Position numbers and translations under genes: made by a program. The notes below the pieces were generated by a model. It was not told the origin of the DNA and made no database searches. It worked only from the letters and a program-made list of their open reading frames with translations. From Cloeon dipterum (Eukaryota > Arthropoda > Insecta > Ephemeroptera > Baetidae): DNA of 64,000 bases. The stretch spans positions 23,271,681 to 23,335,680 of the forward strand of contig NC_088786.1 of NCBI RefSeq assembly GCF_949628265.1, given 5' to 3'. Positions 26,555 to 62,448 of this stretch are shown here, in pieces. The first letter of the stretch is position 1; each line of letters starts with the position of its first letter.

Positions 26555-27480
26555 ATGCTTAGCGTAGCGCTTGCAAGGTAAGTGACTTTAAACAGTTAAT
26601 TTGTTTGTTTCTCACGAAATGAAAAAATTTCAATCTTAAGTAGTTTTTTTAACAATTCCATATTTTACAGTGTTTTTAATTATCAATTTTTTATTTCCAG
26701 ATTATCTCTTAGTGTACCAAAACTTGCGCCATCATTGACAACGCAATGCCGCAGCATTTTCATTCAAAGCAACCCAAAATTATTTAGATCAACTCCGTGT
26801 TTGATGTAAGAAATAATGATTCAAATCTGTTAACAAAAGAAAACATATCCTATTATTTTCTAATTTCAGGGCCGAACCACTGAAAAAGAAGAAGAGAATC
26901 GACCCTGCCGTTCTCAGAGCCAGAGAGGAGCGAAAGAAAAAGAAAATTGAAAAGCAGATTCGCAGACTCGAGAAGAATTCTCGTCAGCTGAAGCCAATTG
27001 ATGAGCTGGAAATTCCCCCAGCAGTGTATGACACTTTAAAGTGCGTACAAATTGCTACTCTTTGGATTTTGACTAACGCACATTCTGCAGACAGAGGGCG
27101 AGAAAACCAACAATCATTAGTCACGAAGAAATGGAGGAGAGGGCACTTTTACTCAAGGAATGGTCGCGGTACAAGATGAAAGAGAGGATGAATGATGTTC
27201 AGCTGTTAGACAAAATGATTCTATCCCAACAAAAGGCTATGGACGAGCTTCGCCTGGAATCGGAAGAACTTTACCAAGAAGCCCTAGCGGTAAACATTGG
27301 AGCAGTACAGTAATAAGAACTTTTCTTAGTAATTTTCTTCCGCAGATGGACCTGAATGTGATGCCCTTCACGATTAAAGGCCCCGTACACACCCCTCCCA
27401 TTGTCAACTATGATAGTCCTGATGGCGAATACACAGACATAACCAAAGATTGGTTCCAGCCCCTCTTCGTAAAGCAATAG
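26555..27480 (+). CDS. mRpL40: mRpL40: large-subunit mitochondrial ribosomal protein L40
   Basis: Structural protein of the mitochondrial large ribosomal subunit. Exons: 26555-26577, 26701-26805, 26870-27040, 27091-27289, 27346-27480. The frame is continuous and gives 210 residues; human MRPL40 is, as I recall, 206. The first ~45 residues (MLSVALARLSL..., Arg/Ser-rich, no acidic residues) look like a mitochondrial presequence. The body carries the family blocks KKRIDPAVLRAREERKKKK, KQIRRLEKNSRQLKPI, EERALLLKEWSRYK, QQKAMDELRLES and the C-terminal GPVHTPPIVNY...DGEYTDITK. It is strongly basic with a helical middle. Introns are 50-123 nt. Its stop codon is 303 bp from the convergent RING ligase stop codon. 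Confidence 0.95.
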
Positions 27481-27783: not shown

Positions 27784-32541
<4,758 letters not shown>

Positions 32542-39565: not shown

Positions 39566-41322
39566 TTGGCCGTGGACGCCGCTAGCACGTTCCGATCTCA
39601 CAAATGAGCCTCCAGCCAACAGTATTATCCATCTCTCGCCCTCTCTCTCAAAGTCCCTGTCGCCAGTCAACTTGTTTGCATTTCTGTTCAAGCATTATTT
39701 GTCCACTGTTATTTAAGTAATCTTTTTTACCAGCTAAAAGCTGCCATTTATTTAGGCCGCGAAAAGTTTTGCGCATTGTCCGGCAATATTTGAGGCAAGT
39801 TGAATTGTTTCAACCCACTCTTGAATAATTAAACTCTGTCTACTTATCCGAAGTTACGCAAAAATACCGCGCAGCCGATTCATTTTCTTTTACAGGCAAT
39901 TGCCTTTAAGAGCAAAATATTCATTTTCTATATTTTCTATTTTCATGATTTCCATCATTAAGGGAAACCAATTTCAAAGCTCTGCGTTGGATCTTTTGTA
40001 ATGTTATTTATCTTTCTGTGATGCTGATATTTTTTGTCCCCTTCATATGTGAGATGGACCGTAATAAAGACAAACCGAAAATCCTTTGTTTTAATTTAAG
40101 AAACTATGTATAAGCACATACAAGATTCCTCTGAGAAGACCTTCAGATTTTCCGGGCGCAGAAAATGAAATTTGAAACCATAGATTTTAAAAAAAAATGC
40201 TTCCTCCACTACATATAGCGAACGGCGTCGCAGCACCTGGTTGCTTTTTGGGTAAATTTAGAACACATATTCCCTACACGCCAGCACACACGTCATTCAA
40301 GTGAGGGTGTTGCTTCACTCGGCGCGCGAGTAAAAATCCATGCATAATCCATACGTGTTTGTCAATAAATATTCCGTTCCCGATAATGCGGGTGATTTCA
40401 GCGTTCGTGACAACCTGCGTCTAGTCCAAGTGCAACTGGAAATAAAAATAACGAGTTACGACAGGCTGACAAAGGCAGCCCCGAAAACAATCCCAGCGGA
40501 TTCTTGAATGCAGCGTACAAACAAACTGAAAGGATTATTTATAGGAGCGGCCATGGCGGAGTCGTTTTGTGCCAGAATTAAACACGCCGCGCTTCATTTC
40601 CAGCCTCAACCTGCCGTTGTCGAAGTGGGTTGGTGGCCGAAATTATGGATGCTCCTGCCGACTGCTCAATGTGAAGTCTGTTGAGAGGTGGAGTGGCGAA
40701 TTATTGGCCAGCATTTAGCGCTGCAAAGAGTCCTAAATAATTGCAGCACCTGCTAATATGCTACGACTCTTGTCAAAATAGTCGTAATGATTGGCAGCCC
40801 GCCGTACAAATTAAGAGGCTTGTTAACATCGGGGTTTTAAGAGAGGATGAAGGATTGCACACACGTCATGACTTGCTCAATGATAAAGTGACGAATTTCT
40901 TGAGACTTATGCTATTTATTGGTGACCTCATTTGCTTTCCAATACATATGTACACGTATGTAATATTCACATTTATATAGCGTAAATAATAACAATATTA
41001 TTAAATCTATATCGATAGAAAGAGATAAGAGACACAAAAAGTATATGTGCGCGTGGTAAATGAGTAATATCGAGCTAAATACGTAAAATAACAGGAGAAA
41101 GGCGAGTTATTGCGCGTTAAAACAACGAGAAAAAACTGATATTAAGGCGGTTCTCGTCTCGAAATAGAGAAATGGGGCAGCAACAATAAGTCCGCACACT
41201 GGCGGCAAAGAAAAGACGTGGCCGCGAGACCATTAAAATGACGATTCAACACGGGTTCATTTTTCTCACTCACCCCCGACCGAGCACACTCATTCCTGTC
41301 GCTCCTTTGCACACAATTTGCA
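39566..41322. other. Convergent 3' region of neuroparsin and the IQ-protein gene
   Basis: AATAAA at 40063-40068 (+) is a plausible neuroparsin polyadenylation signal. TTTATT at 40915-40920 is AATAAA on the minus strand for the IQ-protein gene, about 400 nt past its stop. No other gene is visible. Confidence 0.45.
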
Positions 41323-42489
41323 TTACTTGTTCGCGTTTCTCATGCCTTTCACCTCCTGCCTCGCCTTGTAGCCGCGGAATCCAGACTGAATTTTGAGCAC
41401 GGCATCGTTGATCTCGTCAGGGCTCGGCTCGCACTGGGGCGGCTGCGGGGCCGGCTCCTTGTCCTTCTTCATTCGTTGCCTGGTGAGGTAGCCGCGCACG
41501 CCGGCCTGGATCTTGACGGCGCTCTGCTCCTCCTCCTGCGTGGCTGCGGCGACGGGCGATGGTGTCTGCTGCTGCTGCCGCTCTTTCATCTCCTTGCGCA
41601 CCTTGTAGCCGCGGAAGCCGGCCTGGATCCTGGCGGCGGCGTCGTGATCCTGCTTGGAGGCCGGCGATGGTGGAGGGTCGCTCTTCTTCTTCAGGTCACT
41701 CCTGGCCCTGAAGCCGCGGAAGGTGGCTTGGATGCGGGTGGCTGCCTTGTCGAGAAAGTCCATCTCGGAGCAGTTATTGGGCATCCCCTCGGGGTCGACT
41801 AAAGGCTGCTGGCTGTCATCTTGCTGGTCGGCCGCTTCTGCTCGCTCTGACGGACTTGGCGAACGGCCAGCAGCTTCGAGCAGCAGGCCGGTGTGGAGCG
41901 CCGGTGGCAACACCAAACTGTCGTGGAACTCGCCCGAGTGACGCAAATCGGCCGCAGGTGCGTCAGCGCCGCCGCTCGCACCGCCCGCTACTATGGCGTC
42001 CTCTCGCCGCCGCGGCAAACTCTGGCGTGCACGGTGGCCGCGGAAGTGCGCCTGAATCTTGGTGGCTGCCGCTGCCTCCTCGCTCAGGGTGGCGTCGTCC
42101 TGCTCCTCACAGGGGGCGGCCGCAAGGGGATCGGTCAGACTGGCACTCACGTCGCCGCACTCACCCGAAGAGAAGCTTAGTTTGCGGCACCTGGACGCGT
42201 TGTCCTGAGGCAGGAAGGCCACGGGGGTGGCGGCCGTGTGCGTGGACGTGAAAAAGAGCTCCTCCACGGCCGAGGCTGGCGTGCTCTGCTCTGCGGGTCC
42301 ATCCGGGGTGGGGGTGGCGTCGGAAAAGTGCGGCCGCACGTCGCTCAAGGTGCCGTCGGAGCAGGGGCTGCCCACCTCGTCGCCACTGGGCGTTGCGGGC
42401 TCGGAGGGTTTGCTTTCTACGTGCGATTCAGATTCGTGCTCATTTAGGATTTCGTTTGTTAAAATATTATTTTCTTCAATCAATGGCAT
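41323..42489 (-). other. Terminal exon with five IQ motifs, possible separate short product
   Basis: The exon begins exactly with ATG (MPLIEENNILTNE) after TTGTTTCAG, in phase 0. It can be the C-terminus of the long protein. If a different non-coding exon splices to it, it could instead be translated alone as a 388-residue acidic five-IQ protein, closer in size to neuronal igloo/neurogranin-type proteins. The five IQ repeats are spaced about 40-80 residues apart and separated by Pro/Glu-rich linkers. Confidence 0.6.
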
Positions 42490-45400
42490 CTGAAACAAGA
42501 AAATATTTTGTCAACATAAGGTAAAAAGCTACAATGTTTTTCTGTATTAAATCCGAAAATAAACCGTGCATTTAATGAACTAAAGTGCAAAATTAAAAAA
42601 TAGTTTAAACCATATTTACGTGTGAAATTAAAATTAAAGAATACCAAAAAACCCAGGCATTTACTTCTTTTGTAACATGCAAAATAATAACCAAGTTAAT
42701 TCCATGCAGCTATGTATTACAAAATTGAAGAATATAATGTTTCTTATTTATTATATTTTCCGTGTTGACGGCATAGTAACACGGGTGAGTTTCGTGCGCT
42801 CTACAATCGACTGAAAAGAGCTAGTCAAGTACTCCCATCGATTGCATGAGACACATTTCTTATTAAATGATAGTTGTGTTAGTCCATTGTCAGCAATCAC
42901 CAGTTCCACTGCATGCGGAATTTGTAAATAAATTTAACCTTTTTATATCGATTTGGCTCCGAGGCGTGTTGGTTTCTGCAGCTATACTTTATATGATTAT
43001 GATATTTTTCATTAGCCTACTCTCATTTATTCCACCTAGATAAAACCAGAATATATTTTTTATTATCTATCTAAAAATTTATTACATCGTAATTGAAATC
43101 TAAAAATACTTTATTATTAATCAAACTAAGATACTTAAATTTGTGCTGGAAAAGTAATTTTAAAATAACGAAAGAAATCTAAATCTACTAAGTTGTAACT
43201 ATTTAAAAAAATAACTATAGTAGAAACTGAGATCTGAATTGCAAGTGATGGAGAAAATTTTTAACTCTTTCTTACAACATCCTTTTCCGCGCCTCCCTCG
43301 TCTGTTTTGTCATTCAGAGCTTTCCTCGTCTTATAGCCCCGGAAGGAGGCCTGGATTTTGGTTGCGGCGTTCTCCAGGTCTTCTTGGCCTTTCGCCTCCG
43401 GCACACTGCTAATCTCCACGTTGGAAATTTCCACGCTGCTCTCCTCTTGAATCTTTTGAAGTCCTGCGGTCGTTTGGATTGTCTCGGGCGACTCTTTTAA
43501 CGTCGAAAGGTCGATGGGTTCGATAACGACAGCACTCTTCTTCAAGTCATCCAACTCGAGGGAAGGGGCGTCCTTGCTGCTCGCGGTCTGCTCGGAAATC
43601 ACGTCGGCGGCCTCAGACACCGTCGCCTGCCCTTCGCTGGCTTCCTCGGTGGGAGAGCTCTCGTCGGAATTGCGCACAGCCGAAATCAGGGTGTCGGCGA
43701 TTTCTTTGTCCTTCTGCACCAAACTCTCTTCGGCTTTCTTCCCCTCGGTTTCGGCGCTATCCTCCTCCTCACCCTGAGCACCGTTCACGCCTTCAGAAAT
43801 TGAATAACGAATAACCACGCTGCTAACAGCACCGAGACCTTCGTTTCCAATAGGGGCGCTGCTTTGGCTGTCTGAGGCTTCCTCCTCCTCCTCCTCTTGT
43901 CTGACCAAAGCTACAGCACTTTCAATCAGGATGGTCTTCTCTCCACCATCGTCGGCGGTGATGACGACCACGTCATCTTCAATGACCTCCATTTTCACGC
44001 CATCTTCGTCGTTATTATTTAATGCATTTTGTGTGTTTTCAATCAAGCTCTCGGCGTCGAATTTTACGTTATCGAAAATGTTTTGCTCCTCCTTTGAAGG
44101 GGACGGAATTGGCGTGGCTGGAGTGACATCGATGGTAGTAGCTACCGGAATTCGTAGGCTTGTGGGCTTTGGCGATTCTACTTCTGGCTCAAGAGGGTCG
44201 TGTTCGGCGTCGATTGCCTCGTTTTCGATGGACACAGGGCTGACCACGATAGGCTCCAGCTGCGCGATCTCTTCGGGCAAACTGGCCAGTTCGCATGGAG
44301 AGATCTCGACGCCTTCCTTGCTCGCACTTAGCTCCTCATCGAGGAGGCACGCAGTGCTGATTTCATCACACGTTGATGGCTGCTCTGGGCTTTGAATGGC
44401 TGCGACAATTTCCACGACAGCGTCGGGGATTGCTGCCTTCGGTTGGTCTACGAATTTATCTACTTTTGAAATAACTTGCTCGGCCTCTTTGACAAGAGTG
44501 CTTGTAAGTTCTTCTGCGACCTGGTCGTCGGTTGAGGCTTTTACCTCTGCGACGCCCTCAGACAACGCTGATGAGGCTCTTTCTAAAATTTCCTCTGCAG
44601 CGTGTTGTGCTTCAATTATAATTTCGTCAACAGCACCAATAATTTCTTCTTTTTCCGACTCCGCTGTGCTGTGCAGACTGGACAGAGCATTTTCTGATTC
44701 CTCCAAAAGATCATTTCCTGCTCCCTCGGACTCAGTGACGATTTCCACCACTGAGGCTGACGCATCAGGAACAGCCGTTTGAATTTCCTCAGTTACGAGT
44801 ACTGCATTTTCTAGCGTTTCCTGTACTTGCTCTTCCGCGGCCTGCGCCCTATTAAAAGCTTCCTCTACATTTGCTTCAGTTCCAGATTGCAAGTTTTCAG
44901 CCTCAGAAGCGGCAGCTTCAAATAAGTTAAGGGAATCAGCAGCAGTCGATTCGAGTTTGCTTTCTGCTTCTGCGATGACGTTTTCAATCACTTCCAAGGC
45001 GCTCTTTTGCACTATTTCGAGCTCGTCCGCGATCTTCTGTTCCTTTTCTTCTCTAGCGGCCTCGGCTACGGCTACTCGCTCTTCAACTAGTAAAGCGCCT
45101 TCAGTGACTGCAATTCCGGCCACCTCAGTAACTTTATTCTCAATTTCTGTTCCTACAGCGCTGGAAATTTTCGCTTCTTCTTGTTCAATAAGATCTTCAG
45201 TTTCTGAGAGCAGATCAATAGCCGCCTCCCGTTTGCTATCGATTTCCGAGCTTATCTCGTCTTTGATTTCAATTACAGACGTTTCAAACTTGACTTTGGC
45301 ACTGGAAACATTTTCGACAGCTGTGGTTTGAACATCAGAAAATGCTTTTTCGATATTTCCGACTTGATTTTGCAAATCATTCTCGGCCTCCTGAGAGAAA

Positions 45401-48400
45401 TCGTGGGCGCTTGAGATGACCGAGGTGAATTCATTTTCGATGACACTCACTTTCTCATTCAAACCGCCTTTTACTCCTTCAAATTGTTCGTTTAATTTAT
45501 TCTCAGCTTGTGTGGCGGCCGACTCTATTTCAGTATTAATTTCGGTGATTCTATTTTCGACTGCAGTCTGCACTTCTTCAACTTGACCCTGAACATCTGA
45601 TTTAATATCTTTAAGCTTTTCAGTGGCTTCCGACTCAATTTCTGCAGCTTTGTCTTCAATTGCACTCTTGATATTCTCTGCCTCGGTGATTTTCTTTTCG
45701 GTCGCTGCAGTAGTTTCATCGATCTGATTTTCAGCTTCAGATTTCACTCCCTCAATAACAGCTTCAATCTCGGATTTTACTTCCACAATTTTTTCCTCGG
45801 CTTCAGAAGTCACTTCAGTAATTTTATTTTCTGCTACAGCAAGTGATTCCTCGAATTTTGCCTCAGCCTCGGCGAAGAGATTTTGTGTTTCACTTTTTAC
45901 CTCCTCAATTTTATTTTCTGCCTCAACAATCTTGCTGGAAACTTCAGACCGGATTTCTTCTACTTGGCTCTGAGTTTCAGTAATTTTGTTTTCAGCTTCA
46001 CTCTTCATCAACTCAACTTTGCTCTCTACTGCGGCAGCGGCGTTAGCTGTTTCGACCTTCACTTCTTCGATTTTAGCTTCAACATCGGTTTTCAATGATT
46101 CAACTTTGCTCTCAGTTTCGGTTTTTACTTCTTCTGCTTTGTTCTTCACCTCGTCAACTTTGCTCGAAATCTCAGACTGAATTTCTTCCAGTTGGCTTTG
46201 AGCTGCAGTAGTCGCCTTGTCTACTTCATCCTTTGCCGCTTTCACATTGCTCTCCGCCTCTTCTTTAATTTCCGAAATTTTAGCCTCAGCGGCTGATAAA
46301 GTCTCAGTAGCAATGTTTTCGGCGTCAGATTTAACATTTTCCGCTGCGCTCTCTGCATCTTCTTTGATTTCAATAATTTTGCTCTCTGCAGCTGAAATTG
46401 TTCTATCCAACTCTGACAGAGCCCTCTCCTCGGCTTCTGCGGCTTGACTTTCAACGTCGGATTTAATTTCCTCTGCTTTTGCCTCGGCATCAGAAATAAT
46501 TTTTCCCGCATTCTCTTTCGCTTCGGTGGCAAAACTCTCGACTTGCGATTTAGCCTCCGCAACCGAACTTTCAACTTCACTCACTTTGCTGGTGACTTCG
46601 CTTTTTGCGGAGCTGATTCTGCTCTCAGCGCCTGATTTTGCGGACTCGGCGGACCTTGTGGCATTGCTCTCGAATTCCTCAGCCTTGGACACAGCCGAGC
46701 TGAGACCTGAGCTGATCGACTTTGAACCTTCAGAGAGCAGGTCCTTCACCGGAGAGCCGAAACTCTTAACATTGGTAAAGCCAAAGCTTCGCTTCTCGGA
46801 CTTGCTTTCTGTGCTGACAGGCGATTCGATAACGTCGCTTCCCAAAATTTTATCCTCTGAAGAGGTAGCACCCGACTGGATCGGAGAACCGCTAGTGACG
46901 GGTGTTTTTGAAGATTCTTCGTCTGAGAAGGCTTTAGTAATGGCTTGCTGCAAAATCGGGCTCGGCAGCTTTTCTCCGGCGGTAGTAAGCCTCGCCTTCA
47001 CAACCTGAGCTTGATTTAGAGAATTCGCTGGTGAGCTGGTGGCGCTTGCCTTGCCAGAGTCGGTCGTTGGTGAACGTGGCGGTCGGACAGGAGGGTCTTC
47101 TTGGGCTTCGGCATGGACGGTGGTGGGCTTTTCTTGCACAGCGACTTCCTCAGCTTTTGCCGTCGTCACGCCCGACAAAGCAGCAGTTTGAGCTGAAAGT
47201 TGAGGAATAGCATTAGGATTGTGATTTTGAATAGAGCCATAAAATACATAATAACTAGAGGGCACGTGAATTTTAAAATCACATTTTTGCTTTAGCTTTG
47301 TGATTCGTTATGTTGTGAAAATCGCGATCAACATAAAATAAAATGGAACGTGGCTTAGACAGCCGGCTTTGCACGGGTGTCAAGCGTGTCGCCTACATTC
47401 ACATTGAGAAATGACGAAATTAATTTTTAGCTCTTTCTATAACTGTTCCTCTCACGAATGAATTAGCTCAAATTTAATATTTTTCATTATTATTAATGCT
47501 GAAAGCCAAGTTATATCAATAAACAACAAACTCATTAATAAGCTTTCTTGCAAAAGTGAAAGATTGAATACACTTTGTTGGATAATATGATAAATTCCAA
47601 CTGCAGGTTCTGGTATCTATTAAGAACTTATTACACAATTAATTGTATCGATAAAATTATTGAATAAAAAAACAATTCAGCATTATTTGAACAAAAATTT
47701 AAATTTCAAAACTAACAGGTTTGCTTGATTTCTAAACCTCATATATATTCATGAGTTGGACGGTATTGATGACCGATAAAAGCAATGCGGTATTTGGTGT
47801 CGCAAAACGCCGAACAATTGCGCTCCCTGCTTATTAAAATGAAAGGATGTGGGCCTCCGCACGCGCCAAAATAGTGCCATTTAAAGATTTTAACTCGCGT
47901 TCCGCGTGCCTGCACGCTTAATGACCGTTTTGTTTGTCGCACCCGACCATAAATTTAAAAAAAAGCTTTCATGGGAAGAGCATAGTGTGCGGTGCGCTCG
48001 TGTTTGCTCGCCGTCGCTTAAATGGGTGTCGTATGCAATTCCACACTCCAGCTCTGTTATTGCATCACCCAGCTCGTTGCTGAATTGCATTCCGAGAGGC
48101 GACAAGCAGCGTGAGCATGTGTGTGTTTTTCTGTAATTGTCTGCAAAGTCAGAGGCCAAGTATTGCATAATTGGAAACGCGATCCAATCCCGCGCTCAGG
48201 TGACAATGAGTTGATCATGGTCGGCACCTGCGCGCTTCGATATTATTCGCACAGATCTTCAGCCACGCCGCCGGACAACTTCTCCTACGAGATCGAGTTG
48301 TTTTGAACCATCAGCTCAACGCAAGCTTGAATTAGCATATTAGCTGTCTTCGGAATGCAATTTACTTGTCGGTTGATAGTGTGCGAATTACGTCAACGTG

Positions 48401-51400
48401 CTCTTACTTTGATCATAATCCGACGCGCGTCACAAATTACGTCTTGAATTTCCTTTCAACTCGGCCTGAATTGATTTAATGGTAGCTGTACTCGCGCATC
48501 TCTAGCATTAAAAATCTTAATTCTTAAATAGCCCTTTACTTTGAGCAATCTATATTATGCTCCACTTAAAAGTTTTAAATGTCTATTATATTATTTGTCA
48601 TACGTCAGGGTGAAAGAACAGTAATAAAATAGGTCAAAATAATATACTAAAAATTATTATTGGTACATTATCACCCGGTAATATTGCAAAACATTCTTCA
48701 TTTGATGTGAAACGCGGACACAGGCTTTCTCTCTTATTTAAAAAGTGCCAAATTTTATATGCGACTGATTGGCATATTATAGTTGCATGTTTTTGTTCAA
48801 ACTCATACAATTTATTTGTATGAAAATTGTCCTGATCATTCGTTTGAGATGTGTTGCTACAACAATGCATGATGTCGAATTGTTGGGCAGGTCGCGGGCG
48901 CACCGAATGCGACTTCTGGCACCTTAAATCAGAGTAAATGTGCCTGAGCAGTGCTCACAGGTCCAGTGCTACCGTCTGTCACCGAATCTTTGTATGAACT
49001 CCATAGTGCATTCAAACAAAAAGTCAGCCAAATATTTCTCTCGGAATACTGGACCGACGACAGACTGATGTTACCAAAATTATGTTTCCAAATTTAATTT
49101 TTGTTACTTCTTTTGGATGTAGAGATGTAAGGGGGAAAATTGGATTTCAAAGATAAATATTGAGGAAATAATTTCTGCCTCAAATGTTTTTGTAATTTCA
49201 GAAGTAGAAACTTTGAGTCACTTCTAAAGAATTCATAACGGTACTTAATACATGTAGAGCATGCAGAAGAGTTCAAATTTTTAATAAATTAGTCTATCTT
49301 GAGAAACTTAATTTTCACGTAGAGTTCACCGTGCTAACACACTTGAAATATTTAATATAAAAATGGTTGATTAACTGTGACCAAAACTAATATTTGTGTA
49401 GAAAGTTTTTTTTGGCTTTCCTAGAAAATTGTATTGTCAGGGTTTACCTGACGATATGACCGTCGGTACCAATAGTGTTGATCGTAATATCGTCAGGTAA
49501 ACCCCTGACATTGTTATTTAATACATGATTTCCTGTTTAAAAATTTCCCTGATAGTGGAGTAGGCTCAAGAGAAACTGTTGTAAATAAAATTGCTGATAA
49601 GAATTCTGTGTTTGATCTGCGTTCGCGGGATCCACTCTTGAAAATAATTGTTCATCGAACGCACTAATTGCACGGCGAGTGCGAAATAACTCGCCCAACG
49701 CACCTGCTCTTTGTGGTCCAATTAACAAAGCGGCGGCTGCGGCCGCCTCGAAATGCCACGTGCTTACTCGCCTCTGACTTCCTCGCACCCACTCTACTTC
49801 GTAGCTCGTCGCGAATTCAATCAACATGGGAGCCACGTGGTGCAAAAGCAGTGCGTGCCATTCGGGATTCTATTTTCACAAATGGATCAAACCTAATGCA
49901 AACTGAAGGCTACTAGCCTGAAACCAAAAGCCGTGAAGCAAAAGACTGATAAACAACGAACGCTCTTCTCTCCACCTTATTCTCGATCGTATCATATTTT
50001 AGCATGAAGACCAGTTCTAAATTAAAAAATGCAAGATATAATAAAGTAGAAACGTTATGGCTACTAATTAGCCGCAATCAAGTCTTTTGGCTCGAGCTTG
50101 CCTACACACAGGCTTGTTATGCCCACAAATCTGCAGCAATGGGATGCCAATTTGGGCCAATCAGCAGCTCAGTCAGCCCTGAACCCAGATTATCGTGACC
50201 TGCTGCCGTCGCGCTGCCAGAGCAAAATTGCGATTTATCTGCACGCTCATGTGCCAGCTGAGATGATTCGGTTATGTAAGACAATGACAGTCCTTGTAGG
50301 CTCAAATTACAGACACATTACGATTCGCGCGCTCGTATATTTATAGCCACGTCGGCTTGAATGTGAGAAGATTGAAAGGGAGCGGCGATAGAACACACGA
50401 TTTACATTTGCACAGGAAGTCAAGTTGGTTAGGCGCCGCCGCCGAGTGCATTTAGCAAGAGATTCTGCTCATTTCCCCTTTCTCTCTGACTGCACTCTTT
50501 TTCAAAGCTAAAATTGTGTTTCTATGCCAATTAACGAGCTGCCGCTGCGATAAGTTTAATTGGAGTAAGGGTTATTGTATTTATCAGTCCGAGATTATTT
50601 CTTGTTTTATTTGATGATTTCCTCTCACTTAACTTGTTTGCTGCTAAAACTCTATTTGTATCGAGTCAGCTTTTTAATGATGAAAAATTGGGTTAAAGAG
50701 CGAAAAGGTAAGCTTTCTGCTTGCGAAATTTATTAAAAATATTAATAACATTTAATTATTCATCAATTCATGCATAAATAACATTATTTCATTACTTCTG
50801 TGTATTTTAATATTTGAGGATGCCTCCCCCTTCCTAAATTTTAATTTTATTTATTTTATGAAACAAAAATCAAAGGAAAATGAAACCGTGTTATCATTTT
50901 CAATAATGGATCTTTATCTTGTTTGGAACTATCATTTGATAAAACGAAACTTGAGACATAAAAGGGGCTTACTGAGGTATTTGAACTTTTCCTAAATGAA
51001 TACCGTTTTTTTTAAATCAGACATAGAAGCAGTTTTCAAACAATGCTCAATTTCATCAGAATTACATCACACTCTTGTCCTAGAACACGGTACCTGTTTT
51101 TAATAGGTTTTGTTTGTTCATATTTGTGAGATAGAGGCAGAGTCATTTCAAAATATCCTCTTACATTTTTAATTCAACGCACTTCTAAGAAAACCAAGCT
51201 TCCTACTTTCCACGCATCAAATTCAATGTTTAATTGCTAGAAAGATATTTTTGAACTCAATAACAGGAATTTTTTATAAACTCATTTAGTTGTTCGAATT
51301 AAGATCAACGACACTCGTGCGAATTTCTCTGCAAAGATAACTTTTGACTCCACTAAATGCTCTGCGACGTGACTTTTGTGTGTCAGCGGGCATGACATGT

Positions 51401-52189
51401 GAGAGCTGCAAAAACACTTGCGTTTCTGAATGCTCGCTGCGCATTCGATTTCAGCAAAAGCGTTGATCTCAACGTTCGCTCACTGAATTCAGAAACGAGC
51501 AGGCAGGAGGCGAGGGGTACAAGCGAAATCGGATGTTTGCTTAGCAAAAAGGCAGTAAAAGAGGAGAATTTATGTCACTTTTGCGTCCAGCGATTGGCCG
51601 GCAGGCCTGTGCGCTTATCAAGTTTTCTAGAGAGTGCTTTTGCCATGAAATATCAAAATACGTGTGCGCGTCGCTATTTTGGGCCGTCCGTCGGATCGGC
51701 GGCCACATGCACAATTATTCAGCTGGCCGCTTCCCAAAAAGCCCACTGTCTTCAATGCAGGCGGCAGCACACACTTGAATTAATCGGCACGGCACACAAT
51801 TAAATTGCGCACACGCCTTGTTTACACACCTAGCCGGCAATCGGAAACAAGCGGCTCGAAGTTTTGTTTCTTCCAATCTAAATCAAGAGGAAGTTGCTAG
51901 ATTGATCAAGAGCCGCGTGCGATTTTATCTTGGGAATGCCGGCTGGCCGTTTAAAATTAAAAAAAGCGTGACCCAAATCTGCGAGGGGATGACCACAATC
52001 TTCCAAAAACCCAAAAAATAAAAAAAAATCCAATCACGTGGATTTGAGTGCTTGAAAGAGCACACAAATTGCGAATTTTAGGTCGATCAAGTTGCCCAAG
52101 GTTAAGAAATCTGCGCGGAATTTCGCAATAAAATAAACAAGAAAAGAAAGAAACAAACCCTTTTTGAAATAAGACTGTAGACACCCCAT
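41323..52189 (-). CDS. Igloo/GAP-43-like IQ-motif coiled-coil protein, acylated-N-terminus isoform
   Basis: Predicted calmodulin-binding membrane-associated protein. Minus-strand exons: 52159-52189, 43276-47192, 41323-42489 (31+3917+1167 nt, 1,704 residues, frame continuous). The first exon encodes MGCLQSYFKK: Gly2 with Ser6 fits N-myristoylation and Cys3 fits palmitoylation, as in Drosophila igloo and analogous to the acylated GAP-43 start. Next comes a Pro/Ser region, then several hundred residues of Ala/Glu/Ser/Lys-rich helix with 11- and 7-residue periodicity, then an acidic region. One IQ motif (AATKIQASFRGYKTRKAL) ends the large exon. The last exon adds five: KIQAHFRGHRAR, RIQATFRGFRAR, RIQAGFRGYKVR, KIQAGVRGYLTR and KIQSGFRGYKAR. 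IQ motifs bind apo-calmodulin. The large body is not part of the short igloo I know, so orthology is tentative. Confidence 0.75.
43261..47192 (-). CDS. Large central exon; alternative C-terminus with single IQ motif
   Basis: If the donor at 43275 (GTT|GTAAGA) is not used, translation continues through VRKS to a stop at 43261-43263. That gives a protein with only the first IQ motif (about 1,320 residues with the 52159 first exon). The exon opens after a good acceptor (CCTCAACTTTCAG at 47193) in phase 1, so the ATG visible upstream at ~47265 is inside the intron and probably not used. The helical segment repeats words such as EIKSEVESK, SEAENKI, EEVKSE and AEAEAKF. Confidence 0.6.
49435..49510. 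repeat. Near-perfect 23/24-bp inverted repeat hairpin
   Basis: TGTCAGGGTTTACCTGACGA and on to 49457 pairs with 49487-49510, with a single-base indel in the G run and a 29-nt spacer. It lies in the long intron of the IQ-protein gene. It could be a MITE remnant (ATTG is adjacent to the left arm and just after the right) or a hairpin RNA. Each arm is itself nearly palindromic around GTCAGG...CCTGAC, allowing a cruciform. Confidence 0.75.
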
Positions 52190-52600
52190 GGCTGCTGGTC
52201 AGGGTAGCGCAGCAACGAGCATCAGGTCAGCGGACAGAGGGGTGCGTGACTGACGTCAGCGGTCACTTTTTGGTGAACGCGCGGCGTACGGGCGTGCTCG
52301 GTGTGGTTGGTTGGTGTTCGCACGACTATTGAGTAGGGACTGAAGCGCTATTTTCATCCGCCAGCATTTGCCTTCGAGGGAGCGAGAGAGGAATAGGTGC
52401 TTCTCGCACTCACACACACTGTTCTCTTCTCTCGCTGCTGCCGCGAGTATGCAACTCGGCGCGGCACTGGCCCCACAAAGCTCGCGCGCGAGAGAGTGAG
52501 GTACAACACACACTCGTCGTTCCGTTCCCCCCTTAATCGCAATCAACATTCACACTCACTCGCATTGATTTAATTTTTAACACTCGTTTCCTCTGCAAGT
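52190..52600 (-). promoter_or_regulatory. Promoter region of the acylated first exon, with CRE
   Basis: This GC-richer block precedes the MGCLQS start on the minus strand. It includes a perfect palindromic CRE, TGACGTCA, at 52251-52258, about 62 bp upstream of the ATG, and GAGAGA-type stretches near 52380-52500. No TATA box is evident. It is oriented by position only. Confidence 0.4.
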
Positions 52601-54997
52601 CTATTTTCATTGCGACAATATTTCCACTTGGCGATATTTTTTTTTAAAAACCGCACAGCTTTTGTGACGAGTCAAAGCTAGTTTCCCGTAATCCCCTTCC
52701 TTCGCCTCTTGTTTGAACTAGGATTTGCAGCATTGTTTTGCAACGTGCAACAACAGATAAGTTGCCAAGAGACCAAATCCGATCTCAAATCCAAATGATA
52801 CAGTGTACGAAGATAGGTGTAATGTTTATTTACGAAATTCTGCTGGTGTGCTCTCACCAGCCATCCGTTCATATTTTATGGTTCGCAATGTGAACCAGTC
52901 CGTCTATAAGATCGTAAAATACTCGCTTTAGCTTCATACACACAACATTACAAGTTCTGAGATGTTTTTTCTTTCTCTTTTTTCTGTCCCGAGACGATGC
53001 AAGCACGCCCTGTTGCTCCTCTCCGCTAGAGGAGCAGCACACAGGCTAGTTGTTGCTTCTGGGATGCTTTTTTATTTCCTCTCGCAGTTCTCCGTGTATG
53101 ACATCATTCAGAGAGAAAAAATATTTGCCGAGACGAGTGCATGCGTTCGTCACTAATTTATTTTTTACCTCGAGTATCATCCTGCTCATATAGAGGACAG
53201 TCATTCGTTCCGTACTCATCGTTTTAAGTTAGGGACAAGGAAATTAAGCACGTGAATGCGTTAAATGTTGAATCGCCATTTAAAGTGATCCTTTAAGTAT
53301 CAAATAATGTTTCCAATTTTTGAAACCAAAACACGAAATATTCAGCCTTATGATTTTAGTACAATCCGTCCATAAAAGAAAATCGTACAAAATGAGCATC
53401 AAATTCTCTCCATTTCACGTGACCTGAAATTCACCATTTACCGAGTATCACCGTTAATTACACTTGCAAGCGAATAGCATGCAAAAGAGAATGAAATTCA
53501 ATTTGCAGCATATGACAGCACGTTCAGTTCTCGAAAAATCTTCTCGCGCGGTCCTATACAATCTCGGCGCTCTCTCGCTCTCAGCTGTGATATTTAACTA
53601 CTAACATGGTTTTCACACTCTGATGCTCCGCAGCGGCAATTACAACCAGCAGCTTGTGAGTGGAGCTAATTCATACAAAAAATGTATACGAGCACGCATC
53701 AAAATCATATAAAGCGCGGCGCTTCCCCGCATTACGTGTGCGCCGACACGCATCAATAAGAAGTCGGCGTGCGCTTCCTGCTGCGGTGCTCTATAGGTGC
53801 ACACGCAATGGCTATATAGGAACTCCGAAAAGAGTTCGCATTTCCACAACAGGAGCGTCTCCAACAAAAGTTAATTGAGCGGGGCGCGCTCTTCTCTTTT
53901 GCCAGCGCGAATCAGGTTCAATTACTTGATTCGCGACCGCAGTTCAAATTGGGTGATTGGTTGCTGCTGATTCAATTAGGAAAATCGGATGCGATTGGCG
54001 AGGAGCGAAATTTTACGAAAGTTCTGTTTTTATACCAATAGCCTTTAAATAAAAAAACACGTGCTGTATTTTTGGAGATGAAATAAACGCACGAAACGCG
54101 CTATACCATATATGTATTATACTTAATTATCCGACTTTTTCTTTTTGTAAGGGAAGATAATGTAATGGGGACAGCACACAACAACGTTGACAAATAGAGA
54201 AAAAGTAATTCAATCGCTAGAAACAAATATTGACCAACTCTTTGAATACTTTTTTCTAAAGTATTTGTCTGGGCTAATGAAGAGAGAAAAATCACTGAAT
54301 TCGTGCAATAAAAAAGCCTTTGAAGGTAGCCACCACAAGAATTCTACTAACCTAATCCTAAGTGTTACAGAAAAAGTTGCTCTCGCTGAACAAGCTTTAA
54401 ACCAAACTGCACTTAAATATTCTAACTAAACAAAATCATGACCTGCGACAGCCTTCTCGACTGATAAAATAGCACCAAAACTAAGGAATTTTAATTTGTA
54501 AGTGTTGTAAGTTAAAATCAGCAGTAATGCGTTAGTTAAATTAGTGTAATTCGCTTCCCTCCGCTTTTCATTCTTGATGCGAGAGCCGCAGCGACGGCAG
54601 CAGCCAGTTCCAGCTAGATCTTGCTAATGCCGTGCAGAATATTTCCGGCAGCCTGACGTCACATTTATTTATGTGACGTAATAAAACCATCCTGCCTCCA
54701 CCGCCACCCATGAGTGTGTTTAGTGTGCCCCAGTTATAGCCATATAGCACACTTGCACCGCCATATATATATTAAAGAAGAAAAATCACGCTCTGATGAA
54801 CACCTCGATTCAGTTCTTTCGTTAATACTCTCCACGCATGAGTCCACCCTGCGGCCGGCTGCTTATCGCACTTTAGCGCATCATTTATCAATTCAGGTCA
54901 AATCAGCTCGGGGCCAGCGGGCAGACGCACGGAATCGGCTTTCACATATGCGTATAATTACGATGTTCTATATCAAAAAAACTAGAGAGCACCCCAC
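52601..54997. other. Spacer between alternative first exons
   Basis: No recognised gene. Several short frames on both strands lack conserved motifs. It may hold further 5' UTR exons or regulatory sequence of the IQ-protein gene. Confidence 0.35.
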
Positions 54998-55165
54998 CTG
55001 CTTCCCTCTGGAGCAGCAGGCCCTCGAAGTGGATGGCAGCGAACTTGTAGATGTTCTTGGGCTGGTGGCGCAACACTTCTCTGGCAAGGCCCTCAAGCAG
55101 CTCTTCCATCCCGTTGGGCACCCCAAGTCGTAGGAACAGAGGCCCAGAAGTCATCACGACGGCCT
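54998..55165 (-). CDS. Alternative first coding exon with RIIa dimerisation-docking domain (SP17-like)
   Basis: Read on the minus strand, the exon opens after TTTTAG, has an ATG at 55152-55154 and ends GAAGCAG|GTGGGG in phase 1. That is the phase needed by the acceptor at 47192 on the same strand. It encodes MTSGPLFLRLGVPNGMEELL then GLAREVLRHQPKNIYKFAA and HFEGLLLQRE. This is the RIIa/DD fold of PKA regulatory subunits, SP17, CABYR and ropporin, which dimerises and docks AKAP helices. Vertebrate SP17 also ends in an IQ motif, so joining this exon to the IQ-rich body gives a matching RIIa...IQ order (about 1,746 residues). The acceptor at its 5' end implies a non-coding exon further upstream. 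Confidence 0.8.
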
Positions 55166-57811: not shown

Positions 57812-60022
<2,211 letters not shown>

Positions 60023-61010
60023 TTTGTTTCAAAGAGAATGTGGTTGTGGTTTTAGTTTATGCTTGAGCACGAATCTGCGCTGTAGGCTCTGAGTTACACC
60101 TGCAAACCATGATATAAACATGTTAGAAGAAATACACAGCTGCAAATTTTGAATTGATATACATACTCGCCAACAATCATGAGCTTTTTGATAATTTTCA
60201 TAGCCATGTTGCGTCAAAAGTTTATACCCTTTCAAAGGTTCAAACCGACGCATGAATTATTTATTTACTTCTTGTCAAGCTCATTCAAGAACTGTGTGTC
60301 AATGAAAAAGTCAAAAATTTTATTTAAGACACCATTTTTTGCTTTTTGCCATCAAAAAAACAAACTAAAAATTAGACACTTAAAAGAGAACAACAAAACT
60401 TGTTAATAACAAATGACAATGACTTTGCCAAAGCAATCCACACAATTTTATTCAATGTTTTCAAAGGTTAATTGAAAGGGTGTTGACTCGAGTTTGGTTT
60501 TTGGTGTATTACATATAATATATACGTTATCTTTTGAAGTTTTGAATGTATTAAAATGAACCTACTACACGGGAACGATGTTCAATAAATTCTAAAATTT
60601 TCCGGCTGCCTTGAGAGGTCATTTAGGGTGAATGATCCCAGTAAATTTTAAAAAATAAACTAAGTAAATAGGGAGAACTTTAAAGTCTCTTCATCTTTGT
60701 CGTCAGCATGTCAGCTGGAGTTGGAAATAATGGAATAACAATACCAAGTCCAAGCTTGCCAAATAATCGTAATATTAGCAATTATTCTGATATTTTTCCT
60801 CCTACTGCATTCCATCGAAGTCTATTACATTGAAGTCATGCCAAAGGTTGAAAATAATGTTTCAAAAGCCTCTAACATTCGGGAAAAACAATCGTAAATA
60901 GAAAAATAAATCGGCATAAATTTTTAAGAGGTGCCACGTTCGCGCGAGTATTATGTTGGCAACAGTGTGCTCAGACTCTGGACGCGCCCAGCGCTACTCA
61001 TTTGTTGAGG
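60023..61010. other. Region between ZnT7 and RpS25 starts
   Basis: Divergent upstream region of the two genes: ZnT7 5' UTR on the left, RpS25 promoter at the right end. No additional coding exon is recognised. Confidence 0.4.
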
Positions 61011-61077: not shown

Positions 61078-62448
61078 ATGGTGAGTACATTTAGCTGACA
61101 TGTGGCACTCTATTTTGCCTAAATTTGCTGGTATTTTCCGACTTTTCCGACCAATGATTATCATTAACGTATTCTCGAGGTAAAATTCGTTTGATTGATC
61201 CATAAATTGTGGGTGACCCTTGTCCAAATTTGTCTGAAAATTGAATTTGATTCCGGCGGCTTGGTATGGGCACGGTGTGCGTGTTTACGTACAACTAGCG
61301 TGCCATGCAGCATTGCCGCTCAATATAAATTGTTTGTTTCTGGTAAACTCTCCTGAGTTTTTGCCCCCTGATTGCATCTGAATGATGATTCCTTATATTT
61401 GTATCCAGATTTTATGTGATGGTTACAAAAAACTGATTTAATGAGACTGATAGATGTGATCACTTTCCCCAGGTATGATAATGTAGATATGTACATGCAT
61501 CATACACTCTAAAGTTATTTTAAGCTACCTAGCAAATGGACCTGGATTTAACTTGATATTAAAATTTCTATGTGATTTCAGGCGCCTAAAAAGGATGCGA
61601 AGGGATCCTCCTCCAAACAGCCCCAAAAGACTGTGAAGAAGAAGGAGGGAGGAAGTTCTGGAGGAAAGGCTAAGAAGAAGGCAAGTTAAAATTTAACTTC
61701 CTCCTTATTGCTTGGCATTCTATGTTCCTATTGAGGACCATTATTATATATAAGAGTGATGCATTGTTTTGTTTCTTGTTTACATACGATACAGCGCGAT
61801 ATTATACAGATAATATCTAGTGTCTAAAATAACATTGCTATATCCATTATCTAAATAAATGCTTAGCAATAACAATTATTATCTCATCGCAAATTTTAAT
61901 TTACAAGCGAATGCTGTAGAAATTCCAATTAAATTGATATTTAACTTTATGACCTACGTTTGATGAGTGGTATAAGAGCATTACTGCCCAGTTTTTTTGT
62001 TAAATATCTAGTGAGGTCTAAGGGGATTAATAACTTAATTAACTATATCAACTCTGAAATTAAATTAAAATTGTGTCTTGGTTTGTATTATTTCTTACTA
62101 ATTTATAATTTACACTTGCAGAAGTGGTCGAAGGGAAAAGTCCGCGACAAGTTGAACAATCAGGTACTGTTCGACAAGCCCACATACGAAAAGCTTCTGA
62201 AGGAAGTCCCCTCATATAAGCTTATCACCCCCTCCGTTGTAAGCGAACGTCTCAAGGTCAGAGGCTCGCTCGCCAGGAAGGCATTGGAGGAACTTCTGCA
62301 GAAAGGTACCTTAATATTAAAACGTCTTGGCCACATCAATGTACTGAGACCCAACCTTTCTCTTACAGGTTTGATTAAGCAAGTTGTCAAACACCATGCT
62401 CAGATCATCTACACCAGAGCAACCAAGGGCGAGGATCAGCCTGCGTAA
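61078..62448 (+). CDS. RpS25: RpS25: ribosomal protein S25 (eS25)
   Basis: Eukaryote-specific 40S subunit protein, needed for efficient IRES and some non-canonical initiation. Exons: 61078-61080 (ATG alone), 61582-61680, 62122-62305, 62369-62448, giving 121 residues. It has a Lys-rich flexible N-terminus ([20 protein letters not shown]), then the winged-helix core with [39 protein letters not shown] and [22 protein letters not shown]. The junction KAKKK|KWSKGK requires exon 2 to end AAGAAG|GCAAGT, a GC-AG intron instead of GT-AG. Intron 1 holds a candidate snoRNA. The start codon is fixed by the ATG|GTGAGT exon typical of ribosomal protein genes. Confidence 0.96.
61374..61457 (+). ncRNA. Candidate C/D box snoRNA in RpS25 intron 1
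   Basis: C box ATGATGA at 61382-61388 and D box CTGA at 61447-61450 are 58 nt apart. They are flanked by a terminal stem CATCT (61375-61379) with AGATG (61452-61456), extendable by a G-U pair. A C'-like TGTGATG is at 61415-61421. The size (~84 nt), strand and position in a ribosomal protein intron are typical. The rRNA target was not identified, and another CTGA at 61433-61436 makes the guide region ambiguous. Confidence 0.5.

Follow-up and report, generated by a model that had tools for sequence, protein, structure and literature searches.

In the window analyzed here, the 64,000-nucleotide stretch C1:23271681-23335680 of the Cloeon dipterum genome (the genome searched comprises 190.1 Mb in 10 contigs), we studied a minus-strand locus with IQ motifs, a long helical body and two candidate first exons. 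The locus is probably one gene with two alternative first exons, one giving an igloo/GAP-43-like form and the other a form with a SPA17-type docking/dimerization (D/D) domain on sperm radial spokes. That GAP-43-like and SPA17-like features lie in one locus is well grounded, as far as its letters go. Exon 1b (54998-55154, minus strand) is the outer candidate; it starts at ATG 55154, encodes an RIIa, or D/D, domain (MTSGPLFLRLGVPNGMEELLEGLAREVLRHQPKNIYKFAAIHFEGLLLQREA) and ends in phase 1 at the donor CAG/GTGGGG. The inner candidate, exon 1a (52159-52189, minus strand), starts at ATG 52189, encodes MGCLQSYFKK and also ends in phase 1, at AGG/GTTTGT. Both would be spliced to the acceptor at 47192, which opens the shared exon 2 (43261-47192, minus strand; 1,309 whole codons). 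In a short form, the last sense codon of exon 2 ends at 43264 and is followed by the stop at 43263-43261; in a long form, an internal donor after 43276 (GTT/GTAAGA) would join exon 2 in phase 0 to exon 3 (41323-42489, minus strand; 388 codons, five IQ motifs, stop at 41325-41323). The initial annotation had placed exons 1a and 1b on the same (minus) strand, with the same phase 1 and with a fit to 47192, and its coordinates, phases and stop-free fusions held when checked. The predicted products have 1,320 (1a short), 1,704 (1a long), 1,362 (1b short) and 1,746 (1b long) amino acids.

Splice sites were scored with a generic matrix and ranked against the GT and AG sites of 59000-47190 on the minus strand. 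Among 614 GT sites, the donor of exon 1b ranked 4th and that of exon 1a 63rd, and the exon-2 donor would rank 46th. The acceptors at 47192 and 42489 have a common score, which 5 of 638 AG sites reach. The initial annotation had called 47192 the single phase-1 acceptor; it is the best-supported one but not literally the only one, since 29 intron AG sites, 47192 included, reach a loose score of 2.0. The longest phase-1 frame upstream of 47192 and behind an acceptor scoring at least 1.5 ran to 83 codons. With a codon score trained on exons 2 and 3 of the gene plus one frame of the upstream gene that we take to be SLC30A7-like, exon 1b scored +0.30, above all 358 non-coding windows (maximum -0.03; mean -0.83, standard deviation 0.36). 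Each of the two ATGs has an in-frame stop upstream, at a distance of 45 bases for exon 1b and 12 bases for exon 1a, and can therefore be a true start. At 55165 there is a weaker acceptor-like site, which would allow for a 5' untranslated exon ahead of exon 1b. The 54998^47192 junction is predicted from these signals and is, in our judgment, very likely to be used. Two phase-compatible cassette exons between 54998 and 47192 were considered: that at 48140-47943 was dropped because its codon score (-0.41) fell within the background, and that at 51877-51830 was set aside (the codon score was computed for 48140-47943 only). Direct splicing of exon 1b to exon 3 was also rejected, because phase 1 meeting phase 0 breaks the frame.

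The assignment of RIIa and IQ domains in the initial annotation was borne out by Pfam profiles, which gave 44.4 bits for RIIa in exon 1b (PF02197; E value 1.3e-11, cut-off 22.4), 22.8 bits for one IQ motif in exon 2 and 107.3 bits for five stretches in exon 3. When exon 1b was compared with the PDB, the best matches were all SPA17/Sp17 (7my4, 5.2e-9; 9fqr, 6.7e-9; 8j07, 8.2e-9), followed by PKA RII-beta (1.2e-5) and RSP7 (4.3e-5). With this profile score and with SPA17 as the top structure, exon 1b has the R2D2-type D/D core of SPA17, and 24 of the 43 core residues are identical to human SPA17. The N-terminal flank of R2D2 proteins carries a Pxx[L,I,V] motif (PMC8339350); exon 1b has PNGM at this position, and SPA17 itself has PRGF and PQGF. 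SPA17 also combines its D/D domain with a C-terminal IQ motif in one chain, an arrangement that frame and splice signals would permit here if the exons are joined as predicted. Exon 1b is CpG-poor (5 CG versus 13.5 expected; Poisson P about 0.008, calculated post hoc), and none of 51 overlapping windows of the same length in exon 3 was as CpG-poor; this may possibly reflect germline methylation of the exon, or chance.

Exon 1a places Gly2 and Cys3, both possible sites of acylation, behind a good start context (CAGCCATGG). An acylatable N-terminus is a feature of igloo and GAP-43, and MGCLQSYFKK is predicted to provide one. When the region was resampled 100 times with a first-order Markov model, no resampling gave an exon that began with MGC and had a phase-1 donor equal to or better than that of 1a; the real region has one such exon (a post hoc test). 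The 400 bases upstream of exon 1a have a GC content of 0.56 versus 0.26 upstream of exon 1b, a contrast that fits two promoters and is uninformative on tissue.

All six strict IQ motifs in the window lie on the minus strand and in exons 2 and 3: motif 1, which is GAP-43-like, at 43324-43365 in exon 2 (AATKIQASFRGYKTRKAL), and five in exon 3 with their low ends at 42025, 41701, 41596, 41479 and 41359. By single-site score, with five matches aligned, the exon-2 motif was closest to neuromodulin (GAP-43; 18.2 bits), followed by RSP23 (17.4), Sp17 (15.7), neurogranin (14.2) and CFAP91 (12.6). Its AATKIQASFRG equals neuromodulin over all 11 residues, including a serine, so that exon 2 holds an IQ motif of the GAP-43 type with an internal serine. 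The last motif of exon 3, with three matches aligned, was closest to Sp17 (21.3 bits), with RSP23 (19.4) and CFAP91 (19.1) behind. The GAP-43-like motif of exon 2 and the Sp17-like last motif hint in the same direction as the two starts. Whole exon 2 and whole exon 3 matched nothing in the PDB at 0.001, a genome search at 0.01 with the exon-3 IQ region gave that region and nothing else, and NCBIfam gave matches far below its cut-off only.

The genome contains both the partner with which SPA17 is known to pair and the spoke anchor. A ROPN1L-like frame was found on C4 (L009:1123-1608, minus strand; Ropporin-1-like protein, 1.1e-26) and an RSPH3 gene on C3, and the PDB entries 8j07 and 9fqr both contain Sp17 as well as Ropporin-1-like protein. 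A genome scan with PF02197 gave three matches, namely exon 1b, a PKA RI-like exon and a PKA RII-like exon (the latter two labels were read from translations). A total of three RIIa domains in the genome was nevertheless abandoned as an idea, since the ROPN1L-type domain, with 15 bits in Pfam, escaped the cut-off. With the SPA17 core of 7my4 as query, exon 1b gave 38.4 bits and the ROPN1L-like gene on C4 gave 17.2 bits (E value 1.8). A second SPA17-type D/D domain was not found in the searches of the 190-Mb genome, which strengthens the SPA17-type reading of exon 1b; these searches scored the best candidates, could miss a D/D domain split by an intron and, with the Pfam cut-off, did miss ROPN1L. 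Dpy-30-type matches occurred at five positions, including the PKA RI-like exon, and the joined peptide of exons 1b and 2 matched its own locus and one place on C4 at chance level (14.7 bits, E value 6.7).

The initial annotation had described the shared body as a coiled coil, and this did not hold. Over residues 180-650 of the 1a form, hydrophobicity has a period of 99.1 degrees with a power of 54.6 (the largest of 500 shuffles reached 9.6), whereas the power at the heptad angle of 102.86 degrees is 0.06; a heptad coiled coil was rejected on these grounds. Correlations of hydrophobicity appeared at lags 7, 11, 18, 22, 29, 33, 36 and 40 in the slices 150-400 and 400-650, and the lag of 7 fits the difference between lags 18 and 11. 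The Pfam apolipoprotein model reached 47.3 of the 90 bits that its cut-off requires. The body resembles a lipid-type amphipathic helix or an 11/18-residue helical rod more than a classic heptad coiled coil. Its longest proline-free run, 660 residues, would measure about 99 nm as a fully extended helix (by arithmetic, at 0.15 nm per residue), and the axonemal repeat is 96 nm; that this helix spans one axonemal repeat is, we believe, highly improbable.

These observations suggest how the locus might work. From the inner promoter, exon 1a would give an igloo/GAP-43-like protein, in which an acylatable MGC start would be followed by a charged helix of great length with between one and six IQ motifs; by analogy with igloo and GAP-43, this form would sit at neuronal membranes, where its IQ motifs would hold calmodulin. 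From the outer promoter, exon 1b would give the same body a SPA17-type D/D domain. Paired with ROPN1L, this domain would clasp the RSPH3 amphipathic helix. The 1b form would thereby bring its calmodulin-binding body to the radial spokes of sperm and would work like SPA17, or RSP7 in algae. Promoter choice is probably made by tissue, and a radial-spoke role of the 1b form is somewhat favored by the evidence. Such pairing is known from related proteins: SPA17 alone binds AKAP18 at 9.6 uM, the SPA17-ROPN1L heterodimer binds it at 82 nM, and RSP7-RSP11 on RSP3 is a related pair in algae (PMC8339350). SPA17 is described as an RII-like domain followed by a C-terminal calmodulin-binding domain (PMC11276731). 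Igloo, for its part, has been called a calpacitin and a GAP43-like gene (PMC9618489, PMC6917273), and igl marks R7/R8 photoreceptors of the fly (PMC9751288); in these igloo passages an RIIa alternative start is not mentioned. We put forward tentatively, at slightly under even chances, that in this lineage a GAP-43/igloo gene, through a form made from an alternative promoter, takes the spoke seat of SPA17/RSP7 in place of a separate gene, so that one exon would swap a calmodulin scaffold between the neuronal membrane and the axoneme.

Comparison with known systems shows likeness on several sides. Like SPA17/Sp17, an R2D2 member of the D/D superfamily, the locus has a D/D core and, given the proposed splicing, IQ motifs behind it of which the last is Sp17-like; unlike SPA17, its body is about ten times longer, it has six IQ motifs, and the D/D domain is one of two alternative starts. 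With the calpacitin group of igloo, GAP-43 (neuromodulin) and neurogranin it would share the acylatable N-terminus and the IQ motif, but its helical body is far longer. As for algal RSP7-RSP11 on RSP3, the genome holds a SPA17-like D/D domain, a ROPN1L/RSP11 homologue and an RSP3 homologue; however, exon 1b fits RSP7 less well (4.3e-5) than SPA17, and its spoke location would be by analogy. Exon 1b belongs to the same RIIa family as PKA RI and RII but is nearer to SPA17 (5e-9 versus 1.2e-5 for RII), and exons 2 and 3 contain no cyclic-nucleotide-binding domain, IQ being the only Pfam family there above its cut-off. The initial annotation had held that the locus unites two families. In favor of this part of the claim, a single body stands behind two N-terminal exons that are both compatible with it, the D/D domain has SPA17 as its closest match, and the IQ motifs resemble GAP-43 in exon 2 and Sp17 in the last position; the name igloo would rest on the architecture and one IQ motif.

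Several observations weigh against a two-promoter gene with a SPA17-type form. Behind the D/D core, the C-terminal strand flank of SPA17 gave no convincing tblastn match (with the human sequence), and the pattern W[GA]xx[VILM][ED], derived from that sequence, did not occur at 47-56 kb on the minus strand. Because the stretch behind the core was not found, we refrain from classing the 1b form as SPA17, although it may work like SPA17. Sp17 as solved has 147-151 residues versus 1,362-1,746 for the 1b forms. The donor of exon 1a, 63rd of 614, is moderate. The IQ matches are short, and the PDB comparison covered three of the six motifs (that of exon 2, the last of exon 3 and that at 41479). By whole-chain score, the spoke protein RSP23, which has several IQ motifs, stood above Sp17 and neuromodulin for all three motifs, as did CFAP91 for two of them: RSP23 came first for the exon-2 motif (1.8e-7 versus 0.0039), RSP23 (8.2e-7) and CFAP91 (1.6e-6) came ahead of Sp17 (5e-4) for the last motif, and RSP23 (8.5e-5), CFAP91 (0.0026) and Sp17 (0.0053) followed in this order for the motif at 41479. 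In two collections that are not of animals, pattern-matched stretches were obtained from viral contigs (16 and 18) and genome contigs (258), and no relative was confirmed among them. Some insect gene models bear the name "sperm surface protein Sp17"; if these sit on igloo loci, part of the present result is already implicit in databases. Finally, none of the terms igl, igloo, SPA17 and ropporin occurs in the main text of a Drosophila sperm proteome paper (PMC9494239).

Among other explanations, the RIIa exon could belong to a separate small D/D gene that lies between the SLC30A7-like gene and exon 1a, has a short 3' exon of its own and is never joined to the IQ body. The two starts are 2.97 kb apart, which makes separate promoters likely, and phase-1 acceptor-like sites do occur downstream of exon 1b, for example at 54273 (score 4.4, 57 open codons). 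However, the codon score of the 54273 frame, -0.70, is at background level, compared with +0.30 for exon 1b, and this local terminal exon was set aside on that account. Between 47192 and 58000, moreover, IQ matches are to the loose pattern only (minus strand at 48439, 54383 and 57273; plus strand at 53359), so that in the lack of a strict motif there a separate D/D gene would be a SPA17-like protein without its IQ. The donor at 54998 and the acceptor at 47192, by comparison, make a strong phase-matched pair, and we consider a separate gene improbable. Nor was the RIIa exon accepted as a piece of the SLC30A7-like gene, because the C-terminus of the latter ends upstream at 57815.

Two further explanations were considered. 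The 1b isoform could be made as a general scaffold that dimerizes and docks to A-kinase anchoring proteins (AKAPs), in neurons or other cells and with no role in sperm. Binding of D/D domains to AKAPs occurs in a number of settings (PMC8339350), and in Drosophila, ciliated chordotonal neurons are among the cells that express RSPH3 (CG32392; PMC6367277); the closest match of exon 1b, however, is SPA17, its partner ROPN1L is present, and the same motility survey gives testis alone for ROPN1L of the fly (CG10014; PMC6367277). We regard a form without a sperm role as unlikely. Alternatively, exon 1a might not be a real start, and the locus would then be a long SPA17-like gene of RIIa domain, body and IQ motifs whose likeness to GAP-43 arose by convergence on the common IQ consensus. 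Exon 1a has just 10 codons and a moderate donor, and the IQ matches are short, but its good start context, the upstream GC of 0.56, the post hoc resamplings (0 of 100) and the identity of the exon-2 motif with neuromodulin over AATKIQASFRG speak for 1a, and we find its dismissal very improbable.

Should one gene with two alternative first exons prove true, with a real junction that holds in insects, an overlooked SPA17 counterpart would be a promoter variant of a "neuronal" gene, and two calmodulin-binding families that are studied separately would meet in one locus. An RIIa form of igloo was not described in the titles and abstract openings listed by the searches of the open-access literature. 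In the fly motility survey, the RSP7 row gives the troponin-C gene TpnC41C, marked as not detected, and "SPA17" is absent from the main text (PMC6367277); the passages of the D/D superfamily study drawn on here name no arthropod group among the metazoan representatives (PMC8339350).

At the 3' end of the locus, AATAAA occurs at 43115, 43083, 43064, 43031 and 42752, and the short form could end at any of these five; another AATAAA lies behind exon 3 at 40920. Exon 3 has an in-frame ATG immediately past its acceptor at 42489, which makes possible a third N-terminus with only the five exon-3 IQ motifs. Upstream of exon 1b on the same strand lies the gene that we take to be an SLC30A7-like zinc transporter with a His-rich loop (57815-60028, minus strand); its C-terminal codons were read by translation at 57815-58051 (minus strand), and about 2.7 kb are left between its end and exon 1b for the 1b promoter. 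Elsewhere in the window, we noted reading frames that are presumably RPS25-like (62100-62445, plus strand) and mRpL40-like (26820-27477, plus strand), as well as, opposite the latter, what we assume to be a RING-finger membrane E3-like gene (27787-29865, minus strand). Just past the window (C1:23335681-23340000, minus strand) are C-terminal exons that we take to be neurexin-like. A long TA-type microsatellite at 28707-28953 reads as (IY)n in several frames.

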